Source: Azospirillum sp. CAG:239 (GTDB lineage: Bacteria; Pseudomonadota; Alphaproteobacteria; RF32; CAG-239). Taken from it: a stretch of 64,000 bases of DNA. The stretch covers positions 137,284 through 201,283 of the forward strand of contig FR885511.1 of the NCBI GenBank assembly GCA_000436375.1, read 5' to 3'. The notes beneath the pieces were generated by a model that did not search any database, was not told the origin of the DNA, and saw only the letters and a program-made list of their open reading frames with translations. A program made the position numbers and the translations under genes. Positions 7,880-54,594 of this stretch are shown piece after piece. Numbering within the stretch: the first letter of the stretch is position 1; the number at the start of each line of letters is the position of its first letter.

Positions 7880-9199
7880 ATGTCTCAATTTTCCATACAG
7901 GATATTGCCGCCGGCATTGACCGGCGTTTTTGGTCGCCGCGGCGTTTAAATGCGCTGTTTATGAGTCAGGTTATGAAAGACGGCGAAACCATGCGCAATT
8001 TGATTCACGGCGGCGATCAGGCTGCTTCCGATGCGGTTTTGCAGGCGTTAATCGCTTATTACGAATCCCGGGACAAAGGACAGCTGATTGAACGGATGGC
8101 GCAAATCGGGCTTGACTATCCCTTTATCGGGTTCTGGAAACAGCGTCAGGATGACAAAAACCGCGACGAATCGCAGCCCCTCCGGGAAGAGCTGGAAACG
8201 ATGAAGCGTTTGGCGGCGTATTCGGCCGCCGATCCGGACAAGTTTTGGGCTGATGATGAGGCCTATGAAAAGGCGGCGATTTTTGCCAAATATTACGGCG
8301 ACTTTTTCTATTACAGCAGGGACGGTCATTATATTGTTGACGGGACTGTGCCCGTTGCGGTTTATGAGAACAAAATGCCCTATACGCTTTTTGACGGCAC
8401 ATACCGGGAAAGCCGCTGGCTGGATTTGTCGCTTTATGACAAACCGCAGACTCTGGAGGTAAGAGATTTGTTTGCGGCGCCGTTCCCGCAGCGCAAGTAT
8501 GTTAACGCGACGGTGATTGACGTTTTGCGCAAGACGGCGGCATCCCGGAAAATGGCCAATTATGAGCGGCCTTATACCGGTAACGGGGTTCTGGACAAAG
8601 TTTGCAACGAGATTTATGACGAGACGGTGTTATCTGCTCCGAAGTTCGTGAAAGCGATAACGCTGCTGAATCGCCGTCTGGCAGATGCCTTAAATGGCAA
8701 GAGTTCTGTCGGAAACGGGGATTTTGACGCGGCGGCGATGCTGATTGAACGTTCGGGGCAATATTTTTCCGGGTTGGATTATGCCGCACAGTTTGGTTTT
8801 TATAAAAGTGATGCCGGAAAAGAGTTGATGAAGTTTTCTTTTATGACGACCTTTACACGGCGTAAAAGATTCAATGAACAGGCGATGAACAATTATGTTG
8901 AAGCCGCGGCCAATGCCGGACACTGGATGAACGGCCAGCAGCTGATCACGAAAATGATTTTGAAAAACACCCGGAATCTGGGCGGCATCAACCGCGGGTT
9001 GCTTGAGTTGAACATTATTCGTCCGCGGCCGGAAAAATTTTACGGCATGGACAGTCCGAACTTTGTCCGGATTTTGAACGAGTATTATGACCGGGATTTG
9101 GAACGAATAAATTATGGGGCGCTGGTTTTGAAGATAAAACCGGACAAAAAGGCTAATAGACCACTTTGCTTAAATACAAACCGCAGGCCGGAGCGGTAG
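7880..9199 (+). CDS. Hypothetical protein (439 aa)
   Basis: I do not recognise a family. The protein is soluble, rich in aromatic and charged residues, and lacks a signal peptide or transmembrane helices. A few segments stand out: an Arg-rich FTRRKRFNEQAMNNYVEAA stretch near residue 350, and a Tyr-rich centre (FFYYSRDGHYIVDGTVPVAVY). ATG 7880 has GAAGAG upstream. The 3' end overlaps the convergent truA by about 47 bases, so the last residues are read from DNA that is also truA coding sequence. It may be co-transcribed with recX (60-bp gap). Confidence 0.75.
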   Translation: MSQFSIQDIAAGIDRRFWSPRRLNALFMSQVMKDGETMRNLIHGGDQAASDAVLQALIAYYESRDKGQLIERMAQIGLDYPFIGFWKQRQDDKNRDESQPLREELETMKRLAAYSAADPDKFWADDEAYEKAAIFAKYYGDFFYYSRDGHYIVDGTVPVAVYENKMPYTLFDGTYRESRWLDLSLYDKPQTLEVRDLFAAPFPQRKYVNATVIDVLRKTAASRKMANYERPYTGNGVLDKVCNEIYDETVLSAPKFVKAITLLNRRLADALNGKSSVGNGDFDAAAMLIERSGQYFSGLDYAAQFGFYKSDAGKELMKFSFMTTFTRRKRFNEQAMNNYVEAAANAGHWMNGQQLITKMILKNTRNLGGINRGLLELNIIRPRPEKFYGMDSPNFVRILNEYYDRDLERINYGALVLKIKPDKKANRPLCLNTNRRPER

Positions 9200-10169
9200 G
9201 GCCGGCAGCTTTGCGGTCTTTGGCTTCCAAAATCCGTTTAACGTCATCAGGCTGCAAATGTCCGTCGCCGACCATTTTTAACGTGCCGACCATATTGCGC
9301 ACCTGATGATGCAGAAAAGAACGTGCTTCAACAATAAAACGAATCTCCTCGCCGAAGACTTCAATATCCAACTTATCCAAAGTCTTTATAGGAGATTTTG
9401 CCTGGCAGGCGGCCGCCCGAAAAGAACTGAAATCATGGTGTCCAAGCAGGTATTTGGCACCTTCCCGCATTTTTTCAACATCAAGAGGCACCGGTACCCA
9501 CCATACCCGGTTCTTTTCTAGGACTGCCGGCGCGCGGCGGTTGAGAATCCGATATAAATAACCGCGCCCTTTGGCGCTGAACCTTGCATGGAAATCTTGG
9601 CCTACTTTTTCAACACTAATCACGCAAACCGGCGCTTCCATGTCTCTTAACCGGGCGTTCATGGCTTCGCGCAATTTCCAGTCTTCCATATCCTCTTTTA
9701 GATCAAAATGCGCGACCTGGGTCAAGGCGTGGACGCCGGCGTCTGTCCTTCCCGCTCCGTAGACAACGATTTTATTGGGCACCTGCAGGCGCTTTCCGGT
9801 ACCCGTCTCCTCACGTACGTCTATGTACGCTGCGGGTCTGCGTTCCGTGGAAGCACCATCATGTGCCTCACTAAAATCATTGTCGTCTAAGGCGGCATTG
9901 GACACCTGCAGGTGCTTTCCGGTACCCGTCTCCTCACGTACGTCTATGTACGCTGCGGGTCTGCGTTCCGTGGAAGCACCATCATGTGCCTCGCTAAAAT
10001 CATTGTCGTCTAAAGCGGCATTGGACACCTGCGGGTATTCATCGGTCAGTGCCGGCGTGAAACAGCTCAGCGATTTTTGCAGATAGTCCTGAACGGACGG
10101 GCCGTCCTGTTGTTCCTGCCAGCCGAGAAGATTGGTGCCGTCATATTCGATGGTAAGTTTGTAGCGCAT
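9153..10169 (-). CDS. truA: tRNA pseudouridine(38-40) synthase TruA with a duplicated in-frame insertion
   Basis: TruA converts uridines 38-40 in the anticodon stem-loop to pseudouridine. The N-terminus MRYKLTIEYDGTN, the catalytic block GAGRTDAGVHAL with Asp143, and the C-terminal RSFLHHQVRNMVG are all intact. The unusual feature is residues 48-129: two nearly identical 41-residue copies beginning VSNAALDDNDFSEAHDG inserted between the first beta-alpha unit and the catalytic motif. Removing them gives about 256 aa with the catalytic Asp near position 61, as in ordinary TruA. The reading frame is preserved throughout, so the enzyme is probably made with a charged, likely flexible loop. It sits behind a terminator that separates it from the upstream oxidoreductase. 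Confidence 0.95.
   Translation of the reverse strand: MRYKLTIEYDGTNLLGWQEQQDGPSVQDYLQKSLSCFTPALTDEYPQVSNAALDDNDFSEAHDGASTERRPAAYIDVREETGTGKHLQVSNAALDDNDFSEAHDGASTERRPAAYIDVREETGTGKRLQVPNKIVVYGAGRTDAGVHALTQVAHFDLKEDMEDWKLREAMNARLRDMEAPVCVISVEKVGQDFHARFSAKGRGYLYRILNRRAPAVLEKNRVWWVPVPLDVEKMREGAKYLLGHHDFSSFRAAACQAKSPIKTLDKLDIEVFGEEIRFIVEARSFLHHQVRNMVGTLKMVGDGHLQPDDVKRILEAKDRKAAGPTAPACGLYLSKVVY
9781..10026 (-). repeat. Two tandem 123-bp repeats inside truA
   Basis: Copy one spans 9781-9903 and copy two 9904-10026. I count three differences in 123 positions. A third partial start (ACCTGC) follows at 10027. The unit is free of stops in the truA frame and is rich in small palindromes: CACCTGCAGGTG at 9903-9914 (12 bp, perfect), GGTACC at 9798 and ACGTACGT at 9813. 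In-frame palindromic insertions in housekeeping genes are known from Rickettsia (Rickettsia palindromic elements); whether this belongs to such a family is inference. Confidence 0.95.
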
Positions 10170-13231: not shown

Positions 13232-13261
13232 GCGGCAGCATTTCGTAGGGAATGCTGCCGC
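13232..13261 (+). other. Perfect 11-bp hairpin between lipoprotein and pentapeptide genes
   Basis: GCGGCAGCATT and its exact inverse AATGCTGCCGC surround an eight-base loop. Only a weak T-rich tract (AATTTCTTAT) follows, so it may be a leaky terminator or an mRNA-stability hairpin that sets different levels for the two genes. Confidence 0.55.
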
Positions 13262-13341
13262 AATTTCTTATAAAAATATTTGTCAAAAAACGAAACTTAG
13301 GCTATTATCGTGAGAAACGAACCAATTTATCCGGATTGAGA

Positions 13342-14523
13342 ATGGCAGAGAAAAGCAAAAAAGATTTGGAAATAGATTCTTTACGCGACAAAGCCCGTGC
13401 GTATAAGGAGCTGCGGGCGCATCAGGCCGGGGGTTCGGAGAGCGGCGGCAGCTGTTCGTGGAGTGCGGTTTCCCGGGTTGACGAAACGGTTAAAATCGAC
13501 GGTCTGGACAATTTTCTTTCTTTCAAAATCGATTTTGTCGGCAAAAATCTGGAAGGTGGGCGTTTTGCCGGAGAGAATCTGGAAAACGCCAATTTTTCGG
13601 TGGCCAATCTGAAAGGCGTTGATTTTTCAGGCGCCAATCTGCGCGGCGTAGACTTTTCCGGCGCGGATTTAAGCGGTGCCGATTTGCGCGGCGCAGACCT
13701 TACCGGCGCGGTGCTTTCCGGCGCGCAGCTCATCGGCACGGATTTGACCGGCGCCAAACTTAACAAGGTCAAACTGACAGACATTGATATTGAGAACGCC
13801 ATTCTGCTGGATATTGAAATCGATGAACTTGCTCTGCAGGATTTGCAGGAACTGGTGGAGTATCTGGCGAAATATTATCCGCATAAGCTCAATCTCAGCA
13901 AGATGAATCTGATGTTGCTCGATTTGACGAAAATCGATCTGAAAAACGTTGATTTGCGCGGGGTTGACTTTACCGGAATCGATTTTACCGGCATTAACAT
14001 TATGGAACTGGACCTGAGCGAGTGCATCATTACGCCGCAGCAGATTGCGCAGGCGCTGGGCCGGGTGCCGACGCCCGAAGAGATGAAAATGCTGCTGGCG
14101 CCCAAAAAGAAAAAAGGCGAAAAGGGCAAGGTCGGCATAGACATGATGTCGCTGCTGCGGGATGACGGTAAAGAGTTTGGCACTTGGGACGCGCTTCATC
14201 AGGAAGGAATCAGCATTAAGCAGATTTTGGAAGCCGGCAAGAAAATATTCCGCCGCGACGCCAAGCGGCCGCCGGTCAAAGACAGCAAGACTCTGGAAGA
14301 GGTCAAATCGGCGCAGCAGAAAGCGGCGGACGAAAACAAGGCCGCGCTGCGGCGTCAGATAGAGGAACACAAACGACAGGAACTTGAGAATCGCCGCAGC
14401 AAAAAGCTTGAGCTTGAACAGGAAGTCAGGCGTGAAACCGCCGGAAAAGAGGAAAGACGCGAAGAAAAGGCGGAACGGCCGATAGACGTTCGGATTCTGT
14501 CCAGAGGCGGCAATGAGCGATGA
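13342..14523 (+). CDS. Pentapeptide-repeat protein with coiled-coil tail
   Basis: About residues 65-135 are tandem A(D/N)LxX pentapeptides (FSGANLRGVDFSGADLSGAD and so on), which fold as a right-handed quadrilateral beta helix. A helical break (LQDLQELVEYLAKYYPH) is followed by a second, shorter run (LTKIDLKNVDLRGVDFTGID). The last 120 residues are highly charged and helical, ending in Glu/Arg/Lys-rich coiled coil. No signal peptide is present, so it is likely cytoplasmic. ATG 13342 is preferred; upstream codons look like leader. It overlaps the coupling ATPase gene by 11 bp, which suggests translational coupling and a shared role, perhaps as a scaffold or adaptor. Confidence 0.85.
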   Translation: MAEKSKKDLEIDSLRDKARAYKELRAHQAGGSESGGSCSWSAVSRVDETVKIDGLDNFLSFKIDFVGKNLEGGRFAGENLENANFSVANLKGVDFSGANLRGVDFSGADLSGADLRGADLTGAVLSGAQLIGTDLTGAKLNKVKLTDIDIENAILLDIEIDELALQDLQELVEYLAKYYPHKLNLSKMNLMLLDLTKIDLKNVDLRGVDFTGIDFTGINIMELDLSECIITPQQIAQALGRVPTPEEMKMLLAPKKKKGEKGKVGIDMMSLLRDDGKEFGTWDALHQEGISIKQILEAGKKIFRRDAKRPPVKDSKTLEEVKSAQQKAADENKAALRRQIEEHKRQELENRRSKKLELEQEVRRETAGKEERREEKAERPIDVRILSRGGNER

Positions 14524-53705: not shown

Positions 53706-54422
53706 ATGAAGAAAAATGCAGTTGAGACCGACAGACGCAGAGTGAAAAAACTGGTGGAAGGCAAAAACTTCGACTTTCTGATTATGTCGCTGATTTGTAT
53801 GGATGCGGTCATTTTGGGGCTGATGACATCCGATGCGATGAACCGTTTCTTTGAAGGCGGGCTGTTTATTCTCGACCGTCTGTTTATGGCTATCTTCATT
53901 ATCGAAATGATTATGAAGATTTTTGCTTTCGGCAAAAAGTTCTTCAAATCGGGCTGGAATGTGTTCGACTTTGCGGTCATTGCGATTTCTTCGGTACCGT
54001 TTGCCAGCTGGTTTATCATTTTCAGAACGTTTCGTCTGTTTCGCCTGTTGCGTTATGTCAACAAGTTTACGCGCCTTAAGCAGATGATTAACACCTTTTT
54101 GGCTCTGTTGCCGAATTTTATGGCCATGCTGCTGGTTATGGCGGTTTTCTTTTATGTTTTTGCAATTATGGCCGTTTGCCTGTTCGGTGACGTCTTTATC
54201 GAGTTTTCCGATCTGGGGTCTTCGCTGTTTGCTTTGTTGCAGGTGATTACGCTGGACGGCTGGGCGTCAAACATCGCGCGTCCGGTTATGGCGGTTTTTC
54301 CGCATTCCTGGTTGTTCTTTGTATCGTTTGTCTTTATCTCGTTCCTCATTACCGTTTCGTTCCTGATGAGTGTGGTTTCGGAAGTTGTGAGGAGGGCGTT
54401 TAATCTTAAATCCCGCCTTTAA
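53706..54422 (+). CDS. Bacterial voltage-gated ion channel (BacNaV/Cav-like)
   Basis: A single six-helix subunit, forming a tetramer. S4 reads FIIFRTFRLFRLLRYVNKFT (about residues 103-122) with Arg at every third position, the voltage sensor. The selectivity filter is TLDGWAS near residue 181, between the TLESW of NaChBac sodium channels and other forms; the expected Glu is Asp followed by Gly. S6 (FVFISFLITVSFLMSVVSEV) is followed by a short tail. ATG 53706 follows GAGGA. Length 238 aa fits. Ion selectivity is unknown. Confidence 0.88.
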   Translation: MKKNAVETDRRRVKKLVEGKNFDFLIMSLICMDAVILGLMTSDAMNRFFEGGLFILDRLFMAIFIIEMIMKIFAFGKKFFKSGWNVFDFAVIAISSVPFASWFIIFRTFRLFRLLRYVNKFTRLKQMINTFLALLPNFMAMLLVMAVFFYVFAIMAVCLFGDVFIEFSDLGSSLFALLQVITLDGWASNIARPVMAVFPHSWLFFVSFVFISFLITVSFLMSVVSEVVRRAFNLKSRL

Positions 54423-54594
54423 AAATTTGTATAATGGACGTCTAGTACAGATTTTGTGAGTTGAAAAAATGCTCATGTACTAATGTGTACACTCCGCTTT
54501 TTTCACTCTTAAATCTTACTATACGTCTCATTCTCCAAATTTTTGTAAAACTTCGTATAATGGACGTTTCGGACAGAAACCCGTAAATAAAAGC
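54423..54594. other. Intergenic region with a 13-bp direct repeat
   Basis: GTATAATGGACGT occurs at 54429-54441 and again at 54555-54567, each preceded by AAAA and a T-rich tract. Each contains a TATAAT. No open frame of note lies between. They may be two alternative promoter -10 regions or a duplicated control site, but no matching -35 is clear. Confidence 0.35.

Follow-up and report, generated by a model that had tools for sequence, protein, structure and literature searches.

What is the tandem repeat that lies in frame within truA of Azospirillum sp. CAG:239, and how has this tRNA-modifying enzyme come to carry it? The window analyzed here is a stretch of 64,000 nt of contig FR885511.1 (positions 137,284-201,283, forward strand); its own genome is labeled G000, and labels such as g1 and g40 denote genera. 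The locus has three parts:

9153..10169, minus strand: truA, encoding tRNA pseudouridine(38-40) synthase, 338 aa (open reading frame; PF01416; TIGR00071 178.5 bits, over its cut-off)
9897..10019, minus strand: first 123-bp unit, upstream in truA (repeat comparison)
9774..9896, minus strand: second 123-bp unit, adjoining the catalytic motif (repeat comparison)

The units lie head to tail and differ at 4 of 123 bases in the 9774-10019 register and at 3 of 123 in the 9781-10026 register, the latter in agreement with an earlier note on this DNA that had counted three differences between two 123-bp copies; Tandem Repeats Finder reports 2.1 copies with 96% matches and no indels. Both units together make up about residues 48-129 of TruA, adding 82 in-frame codons with the frame open throughout. 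TruA residues 4-36 align with chain residues 7-39 of E. coli TruA (PDB 1dj0) and residues 130-337 with 40-245, and because this alignment is continuous apart from the insert, there is a single insertion point. It lies before the E. coli-matching segment 40-245, which holds GAGRTDAGVHA, confirming the earlier placement of 82 added residues between the first fold unit and this motif. In terms of TruA secondary structure, the insertion point would be the turn between the first helix and the strand leading into GAGRTDAGVHA. A single-sequence AlphaFold2 model of TruA has a mean pLDDT of 37 and is the basis of no structural claim here. In the 25 genomes of the bacterial family outside the window's own genus that have a TruA hit, TruA frames measure 249-295 codons stop-to-stop in 24 and 336 in G008. 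Elsewhere in the window, the plus strand encodes a pentapeptide-repeat-like protein (ANLxGVDFSGADL...) at 13252-14523, where the DNA contains short tandem repeats.

Several perfect palindromes had been noted within the unit, and ACGTACGT, GGTACC and CCTGCAGG are all present. They are pieces of one imperfect palindrome of ~130 nt (9759-9889, minus strand) that exceeds the 123-bp unit and extends into the truA codons K-I-V-V:

9759..9889, minus strand: full hairpin element, model positions 1-132, including codons K-I-V-V on the 3' side (covariance model, 100.8 bits)
9897..9995, minus strand: hairpin match of the first unit, model positions 18-117, without the paired outer arm (65.9 bits; also C108:147165-147295 in the own-genome search)
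9808..9830, minus strand: conserved apical core GCGTACATAGACGTACGTGAGGA of the second unit (23-base core search)
9931..9953, minus strand: conserved apical core of the first unit (23-base core search)
9871..9884, minus strand: outer 5' arm of the second unit, GACAATGATTTTAG (arm comparison; positioned by hand)
9762..9774, minus strand: outer 3' arm, TAAAATCGTTGTC, coding K-I-V-V of TruA (arm comparison; positioned by hand)

The 23-base core occurs twice in the window, versus 0.01 occurrences expected from shuffling, and a 28-base core is common to dozens of places. The folding energy of one unit alone is modestly better than that of shuffles (z about -2); the case for a hairpin is based on covariation and not on single-unit folding. 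After L013 and L037 had been dropped and one L008 and one L106 copy skipped, 41 representatives remained, and 36 of these (leaving out L064, L107, L109, one L070 copy and the other L008 copy) could be aligned into one consensus hairpin with 34 pairs over 132 positions. In this alignment, 90.8% of paired cells are complementary, as opposed to 67.7% with shuffled partners and at most 44.7% with partners slid, and 29 of the 34 pairs have changes on both sides. In the outer helix, Watson-Crick cells account for 87.9% between cognate arms versus 50.0% between non-cognate arms; in 17 of the 36 copies the cognate arm pairs better than every foreign arm, and for four (L001, which is the window's first unit, the first copy of L056, L085 and L092) over a third of the foreign arms pair equally well. 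The element is thus a hairpin with a conserved apical core, conserved internal loops and covarying stems. We rejected a known RNA family as its identity for lack of Rfam matches: at gathering scores, the window and three family loci gave only tRNAs and seven loci of other groups only a cobalamin riboswitch, with no match to the element, and the surroundings of the truA insert gave no match at E<=1. Pfam found a domain in none of 18 insert peptides.

The element is dispersed, as had been proposed, in unrelated genes and intergenic sites of its own genome and of relatives. A DNA search of the own genome found one more related stretch, inside a 644-codon [FeFe]-hydrogenase-like open reading frame (TIGR04105 174.7 bits, under its cut-off). 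The covariance model gave 20 rows, which correspond to 19 places because C106:1886-2017 (minus strand) is the opposite-strand reading of another row. Four of these places fall within genes (two in truA and one each in hemW and the hydrogenase-like gene), and 15 lie outside recognizable genes as judged by inspection of open reading frames of at least 100 aa; four of the 15 (L187, L191, L197 and L202) overlap frames of 102-208 aa whose reality is doubtful. One noncoding copy is in the window itself:

54418..54549, minus strand: noncoding hairpin copy between two convergent open reading frames (covariance model, 113.9 bits, E 3.9e-25)

The covariance model matched 133 of 152 family genomes at E<=0.001 and, at E<=1e-4, 33 of 299 genomes sampled from the phylum, the own genome included; with at most 22 (family) and 11 (phylum) candidates scored per genome, per-genome counts are lower bounds. 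A profile of the insert peptide, with the consensus DASTERxPAAYIxVREDASTG from the single frame that stays open, matched in 27 of the 152 family genomes. Five genes of the family carry in-frame copies. In truA, the element is in frame in G000, G001, G003 and G004 (g1) and in G161 and G163 (g40), and the frame is broken in G005 (g1). It lies near the hemW N-terminus in G000-G005, G028 and G111 and more weakly in G105; further copies are in prfC of G007, in ftsY of G108, where it is cut by the contig end, and in the hydrogenase-like gene of G000 and G002. For four of the five genes we found insert-free relatives. The hydrogenase-like gene was read directly without an insert in six, and G027, G030 and G160 show the same gap in the search; prfC lacks it in the ten relatives read, and hemW of, for example, G010, G015, G016, G026, G030, G106 and G113 starts near the YIHWP motif with no insert. 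For truA, we read the loop in each of the 24 family loci that remain once G002 and the insert-bearing loci are set aside, and 18 have a plain 29-residue stretch between GWQ and GRTD. The other six (G006, G013, G017, G027, G030 and G031) have 21-44 extra residues that by eye are unlike the element. With these six (loci L010, L026, L009, L029, L013 and L032, respectively), the TruA loop appears insertion-prone.

Because the same truA site is occupied in both g1 and g40, the insertion is old and the window's copy shows no sign of recent movement. This shared site, together with the well-conserved insert DNA between G001/G003/G004 and g40, is what would be expected of an old TruA-specific domain with a tRNA- or partner-binding role that is kept by protein selection. 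Such a domain would not be expected to recur as the same peptide in hemW, prfC, ftsY and the hydrogenase-like gene, to vary from one unit to at least two, to be reduced to a short scar in G002 and to a 13-residue tail of the element in G162 and G166, to be missing from the plain loops described above, or to vary without regard to codon position, as detailed below. We reject it on the other host genes, the scars and the absent codon periodicity, and consider it extremely improbable. The outcome that the earlier note had named as decisive against mobility was a lack of any other copy combined with the same truA site in all relatives; instead, copies are dispersed and most of the truA loci read are insert-free.

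Variation in unit number is not confined to truA. HemW arrays contain up to five coding 40-residue units (G004), there are several intergenic arrays, and direct repeats flank the copies in truA (LQKSN), the hydrogenase-like gene (QVSAA) and hemW (KQLPA). The earlier note had suggested that the truA copy later duplicated in tandem; the tandem state recurs in the family, and in truA it is the copy number that changes. Gap-free coding arrays have periods of 120, 123 or 150 bp, all multiples of three; hemW arrays interrupted by N runs have periods of 128 (G028) and 186 (G005), and the remaining arrays 114, 121, 122, 124, 125, 126, 144 and 199. Array copy numbers may be wrong because the genomes appear to be draft metagenome assemblies. 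The truA gene of G003 (L036/L037) is split across two contig ends inside the repeat, and further units may exist there; in G005 (L041, C2) the reading frame breaks where the second unit ends, which may be a true loss or an assembly error in the repeat.

The earlier note had likened the insert to Rickettsia palindromic elements, and profile and covariance comparisons bear this out: by these comparisons, the insert peptide is homologous to that of Rickettsia RPE1. Alignment of the insert peptides with nine RPE1 stretches (six from Rickettsia-named loci) by hhalign gave 97.3% with E 1.7e-11 over 27 columns. The RPE1 model matched 12 of the 18 insert peptides at E<=0.01, and the window's own 44-aa unit alone had no RPE1 match at this threshold. 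Against NCBIfam TIGR01045 (RPE1, cut-off 30 bits), the HemW array of G028 (47.4 bits) and the FtsY insert of G108 (30.9 bits) score over the cut-off and HemW of G002 (25.6 bits) and the window's TruA (21.4 bits, E 1.8e-4) under it; TIGR01045 is not among the best 25 families for the hydrogenase-like protein or PrfC. At the DNA level, a core-pattern scan of genome contigs gave at least 119 stretches, 80 of them listed, and among the core matches listed are Rickettsia, Holosporales, Legionella, beta- and gammaproteobacteria and Chlorobi. We applied the covariance model (R1), built from this family's copies alone, without Rickettsia or the other groups' loci, to 52 of the 80 listed loci, and it matched 51 (L250 had no match) in 60 rows at E<=0.01. 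The best row per Rickettsia-named locus has an E-value of 5.4e-19 to 2.1e-13 in 12 of the 13 given and 6.4e-9 in one, and nearly all matches to Rickettsia loci run across positions 1-132; E-values are ~1e-12 for Legionella, 2e-10 to 4e-4 for beta- and gammaproteobacteria and 1e-7 to 4e-4 for Chlorobi. Because the loci were chosen by the core pattern, these scores are partly built in; what the model adds is the fit over the full length. Copies that are coding in the RPE1 frame occur in Rickettsia open reading frames, in Holosporales (L315) and in a 264-codon open reading frame of Legionella steigerwaltii (L311). In L311, the RPE1-like in-frame stretch sits before a CxxCH motif, and among the same-core hairpins of Chlorobi and beta- and gammaproteobacteria (L239-L318) the arms are by eye alike within each group.

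The family's element and RPE1 have in common the peptide TER.TAAY..VRED.STG in the same reading frame, the hairpin core ACGGARC...GTAC......GTACRTGAGGA, and a location both in frame inside unrelated genes and between genes. Like RPE1, the element is a repeat in the range of ~100-150 bp that folds into a long stem-loop, enters unrelated genes without breaking them (truA of G005 is the exception) and is present between genes, as at the 15 non-gene places of the own genome. It differs from RPE1 in occurring outside Rickettsia and Wolbachia, the window's genome belonging to another bacterial family, although this is the reported range of RPE1 and not a structural criterion; moreover, its outer arms are by eye unlike those of many Rickettsia copies and vary by locus, and it is often in tandem arrays and mostly noncoding in its own genome. 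Thus, of the proposal that the insert is a mobile palindromic repeat of this lineage, the dispersal in genes and intergenic sites holds and the restriction to the lineage does not. By eye, hemW of G007 has an RPE1-like N-terminal stretch and that of G027 a decayed one. The start of hemW (L358-L382) carries differing RPE1-like inserts in at least four genera (g1, g2, g9 and g12) and a decayed one in g8, as in a recurrent landing site.

How the inserts diverge indicates at which level they are conserved. In six truA sequences from two genera (G000, G001, G003, G004, G161 and G163; truA of G005, with a truncated last unit, is omitted from the counts, and G002 lacks a unit at this site), the hairpin portion of the insert has 11, 6 and 10 variable sites at codon positions 1, 2 and 3 (37 each) and the truA body 27, 19 and 142 (200 each), a difference in third-position share with a Fisher p of 1.4e-4. 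Without the window's copy, the counts are 6/4/5 in the insert versus 20/16/125 in the body (p 7e-4), and the changes in these five copies fall at 7 of 12 positions in the spacer, 3 of 6 in the apical loop, 9 of 45 in the 3' part and 3 of 60 in the 5' stem. Between hemW of G000 and G002, 4 of 120 insert bases differ, three of them in the 6-base apical loop, and synonymous divergence is 0.02 in the insert versus 0.59 in the body (p 6e-10); in the hydrogenase-like gene it is 0.13 in the insert versus about 0.4 (p 0.0013). The window's own truA insert has lower divergence at synonymous sites only. Its overall divergence is not below that of the gene, at 0.20-0.22 versus 0.22-0.24 with g40 and 0.21 versus 0.17-0.18 with G001/G004. 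The covarying stems and the lack of codon periodicity in the truA insert indicate that it is the nucleic acid, and not the encoded peptide, that is conserved; judged from these sequences, what the element's DNA appears to preserve is a hairpin and not a protein.

Inserts that are closer between genera than their genes might also reflect independent recent insertions or short-tract horizontal exchange with no constraint at the DNA level. Between G001/G003/G004 and g40, the truA inserts diverge by 0.09-0.14 and the bodies by 0.20-0.22, and synonymous divergence in these pairs is 0.42-0.48 in the first 20 codons past the insert versus 0.76-0.82 beyond codon 60, as if an exchanged tract faded out; in hemW of G000 and G002 it is 0.17 in the first 20 codons past the insert, and in the hydrogenase-like gene it dips to 0.20 on the right side. 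Because some pairs have lowered synonymous divergence beside the insert, a contribution from local recombination or exchange is possible. Exchange would not, however, concentrate changes in the truA spacer and apical loop while sparing the 5' stem, the left side of the hydrogenase-like gene has no such dip, and pairs of G000 with g40 lack such fading, yet their inserts are also without a third-position excess. Exchange in place of constraint is therefore, in our view, somewhat unlikely.

If the element is kept as a nucleic acid, it could be kept for a function. The hairpin might be an RNA or DNA signal, such as a terminator, an mRNA-stability element or a protein-binding site, that is readable in frame by chance and dispersed by function rather than selfishness. 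The strong covariation is consistent with this idea, as is the finding that in two hemW groups 5 of 9 variable sites fall in the 6-nt apical loop (p 3e-5, with the sites placed by eye and the loop picked afterwards). Moreover, by inspection, nine of the 15 non-gene copies of the own genome have a boundary no more than 14 bases from where a neighboring open reading frame ends, in a terminator-like position. On the other side, a simple terminator scan of one intergenic copy found no terminator-like site, Rfam has no match, and copies lie inside unrelated genes. G-U pairs are also rare in the alignment (32 cells versus 1042 Watson-Crick cells, of 1185), which fits copying of a DNA palindrome better than selection on RNA, and we infer that the arms are more probably copied as DNA than maintained by selection on RNA alone. 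A functional signal as the reason for dispersal is unlikely.

Arm copying may leave traces in the host sequence. In the hydrogenase-like gene, the 3' arm codes for the host residues A-N-R-L-F, which are also present in the insert-free G006, and the 5' arm is the reverse complement of the 3' arm at 14 of 15 bases. The idea that arms derive from the host is clear in this gene and fits truA and prfC. That the 3' outer arm is always host sequence inversely copied into the 5' arm has been weakened to a possibility, as insert-free hemW relatives lack the corresponding stretch. Because of these relatives, and because noncoding copies share a weak arm consensus, the arm partly belongs to the element.

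Palindromic repeats that are often extragenic and frequently in tandem also recall REP-like elements, which a resident RAYT/Y1 transposase could move. PF01797 was found neither in the own genome nor in G001, despite at least 22 scored element copies in the latter, and among the 152 genomes the Y1 transposase (PF01797) is present in 5 of 19 without the element versus 48 of 133 with it (p 0.45). This lack of association argues against a resident Y1/RAYT transposase as the mover and sets the element apart from REP/RAYT elements, making such an origin highly unlikely. According to one report, GTAG/CGTC-tagged REP elements are likewise palindromic, mainly extragenic and at times inside genes, and CGTC repeats occur in alphaproteobacteria, Rickettsiae and Chlorobi (PMC3733652); those elements are 20-40 bp long there, in contrast to ~130 bp here.

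Closer precedents are the Rickettsia elements themselves, for which one account gives a length of 105-146 bp and in-frame copies in 19 Rickettsia reading frames, and marks target duplication with "?" (PMC2229807). Other articles identify them in Rickettsia and Wolbachia (PMC3767692), mention one further Rickettsia case (PMC5656822) and consider that similar cases might exist elsewhere (PMC10969869). The protein-coding palindromic repeats of Wolbachia follow the same concept of in-frame palindromes, a likeness by description (PMC2229807, PMC3767692). Coding palindromes in nematomorph mitochondria are also inverted repeats within genes that are kept palindromic, and template switching has been proposed for them; their repeats are perfect, with arms reaching 142 bp, and they lie in mitochondrial genes and are not presented as a dispersed bacterial element (PMC6649704). 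Among the open-licence papers listed by literature searches, none reported RPE1 from this family, Legionella or Chlorobi. Two features look new: the strong stem covariation of the 130-nt hairpin and the lack of codon periodicity in the variation of the truA insert.

We conclude that the truA insert very probably consists of two tandem copies of a protein-coding palindromic element of the RPE1 superfamily, a non-autonomous hairpin of ~130 nt that is kept as a nucleic acid. In our model, this selfish hairpin would spread mainly between genes and sometimes land in a gene in its one open frame, and copies would survive in those genes where the host fold tolerates a polar loop; in TruA, the tolerated site would be the turn that joins the first helix to the strand preceding GAGRTDAGVHA. 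Recombination between direct repeats would alter the copy number, giving rise to arrays of 1-5 units and to scars that keep the 3' end only. The palindrome would most likely be kept by repair in which one arm is copied from the other (template switching), by selection acting on the nucleic acid, or by both, and the insert peptide would be a by-product. Present-day mobility, tolerance of the loop and the mode of palindrome maintenance are what we infer within this model.

It is tempting to speculate further that RPE1 is one branch of an old hairpin element that crosses phyla (Alpha-, Beta- and Gammaproteobacteria and Chlorobi), is for the most part noncoding and stays palindromic everywhere, including in genes; we hold this tentatively, at slightly less than even chances. 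If true, each host gene would carry, in addition to its protein message, a DNA hairpin that corrects itself and can use the host flank as the template for its outer arm. An RPE1-type element in another bacterial family offers numerous species and insert-free relatives for comparison. Because the truA insert is without codon periodicity, the reading of coding palindromes as selfish DNA becomes testable, and the copies in Chlorobi, Legionella and beta- and gammaproteobacteria widen the field in which to search for the mobilizing enzyme.
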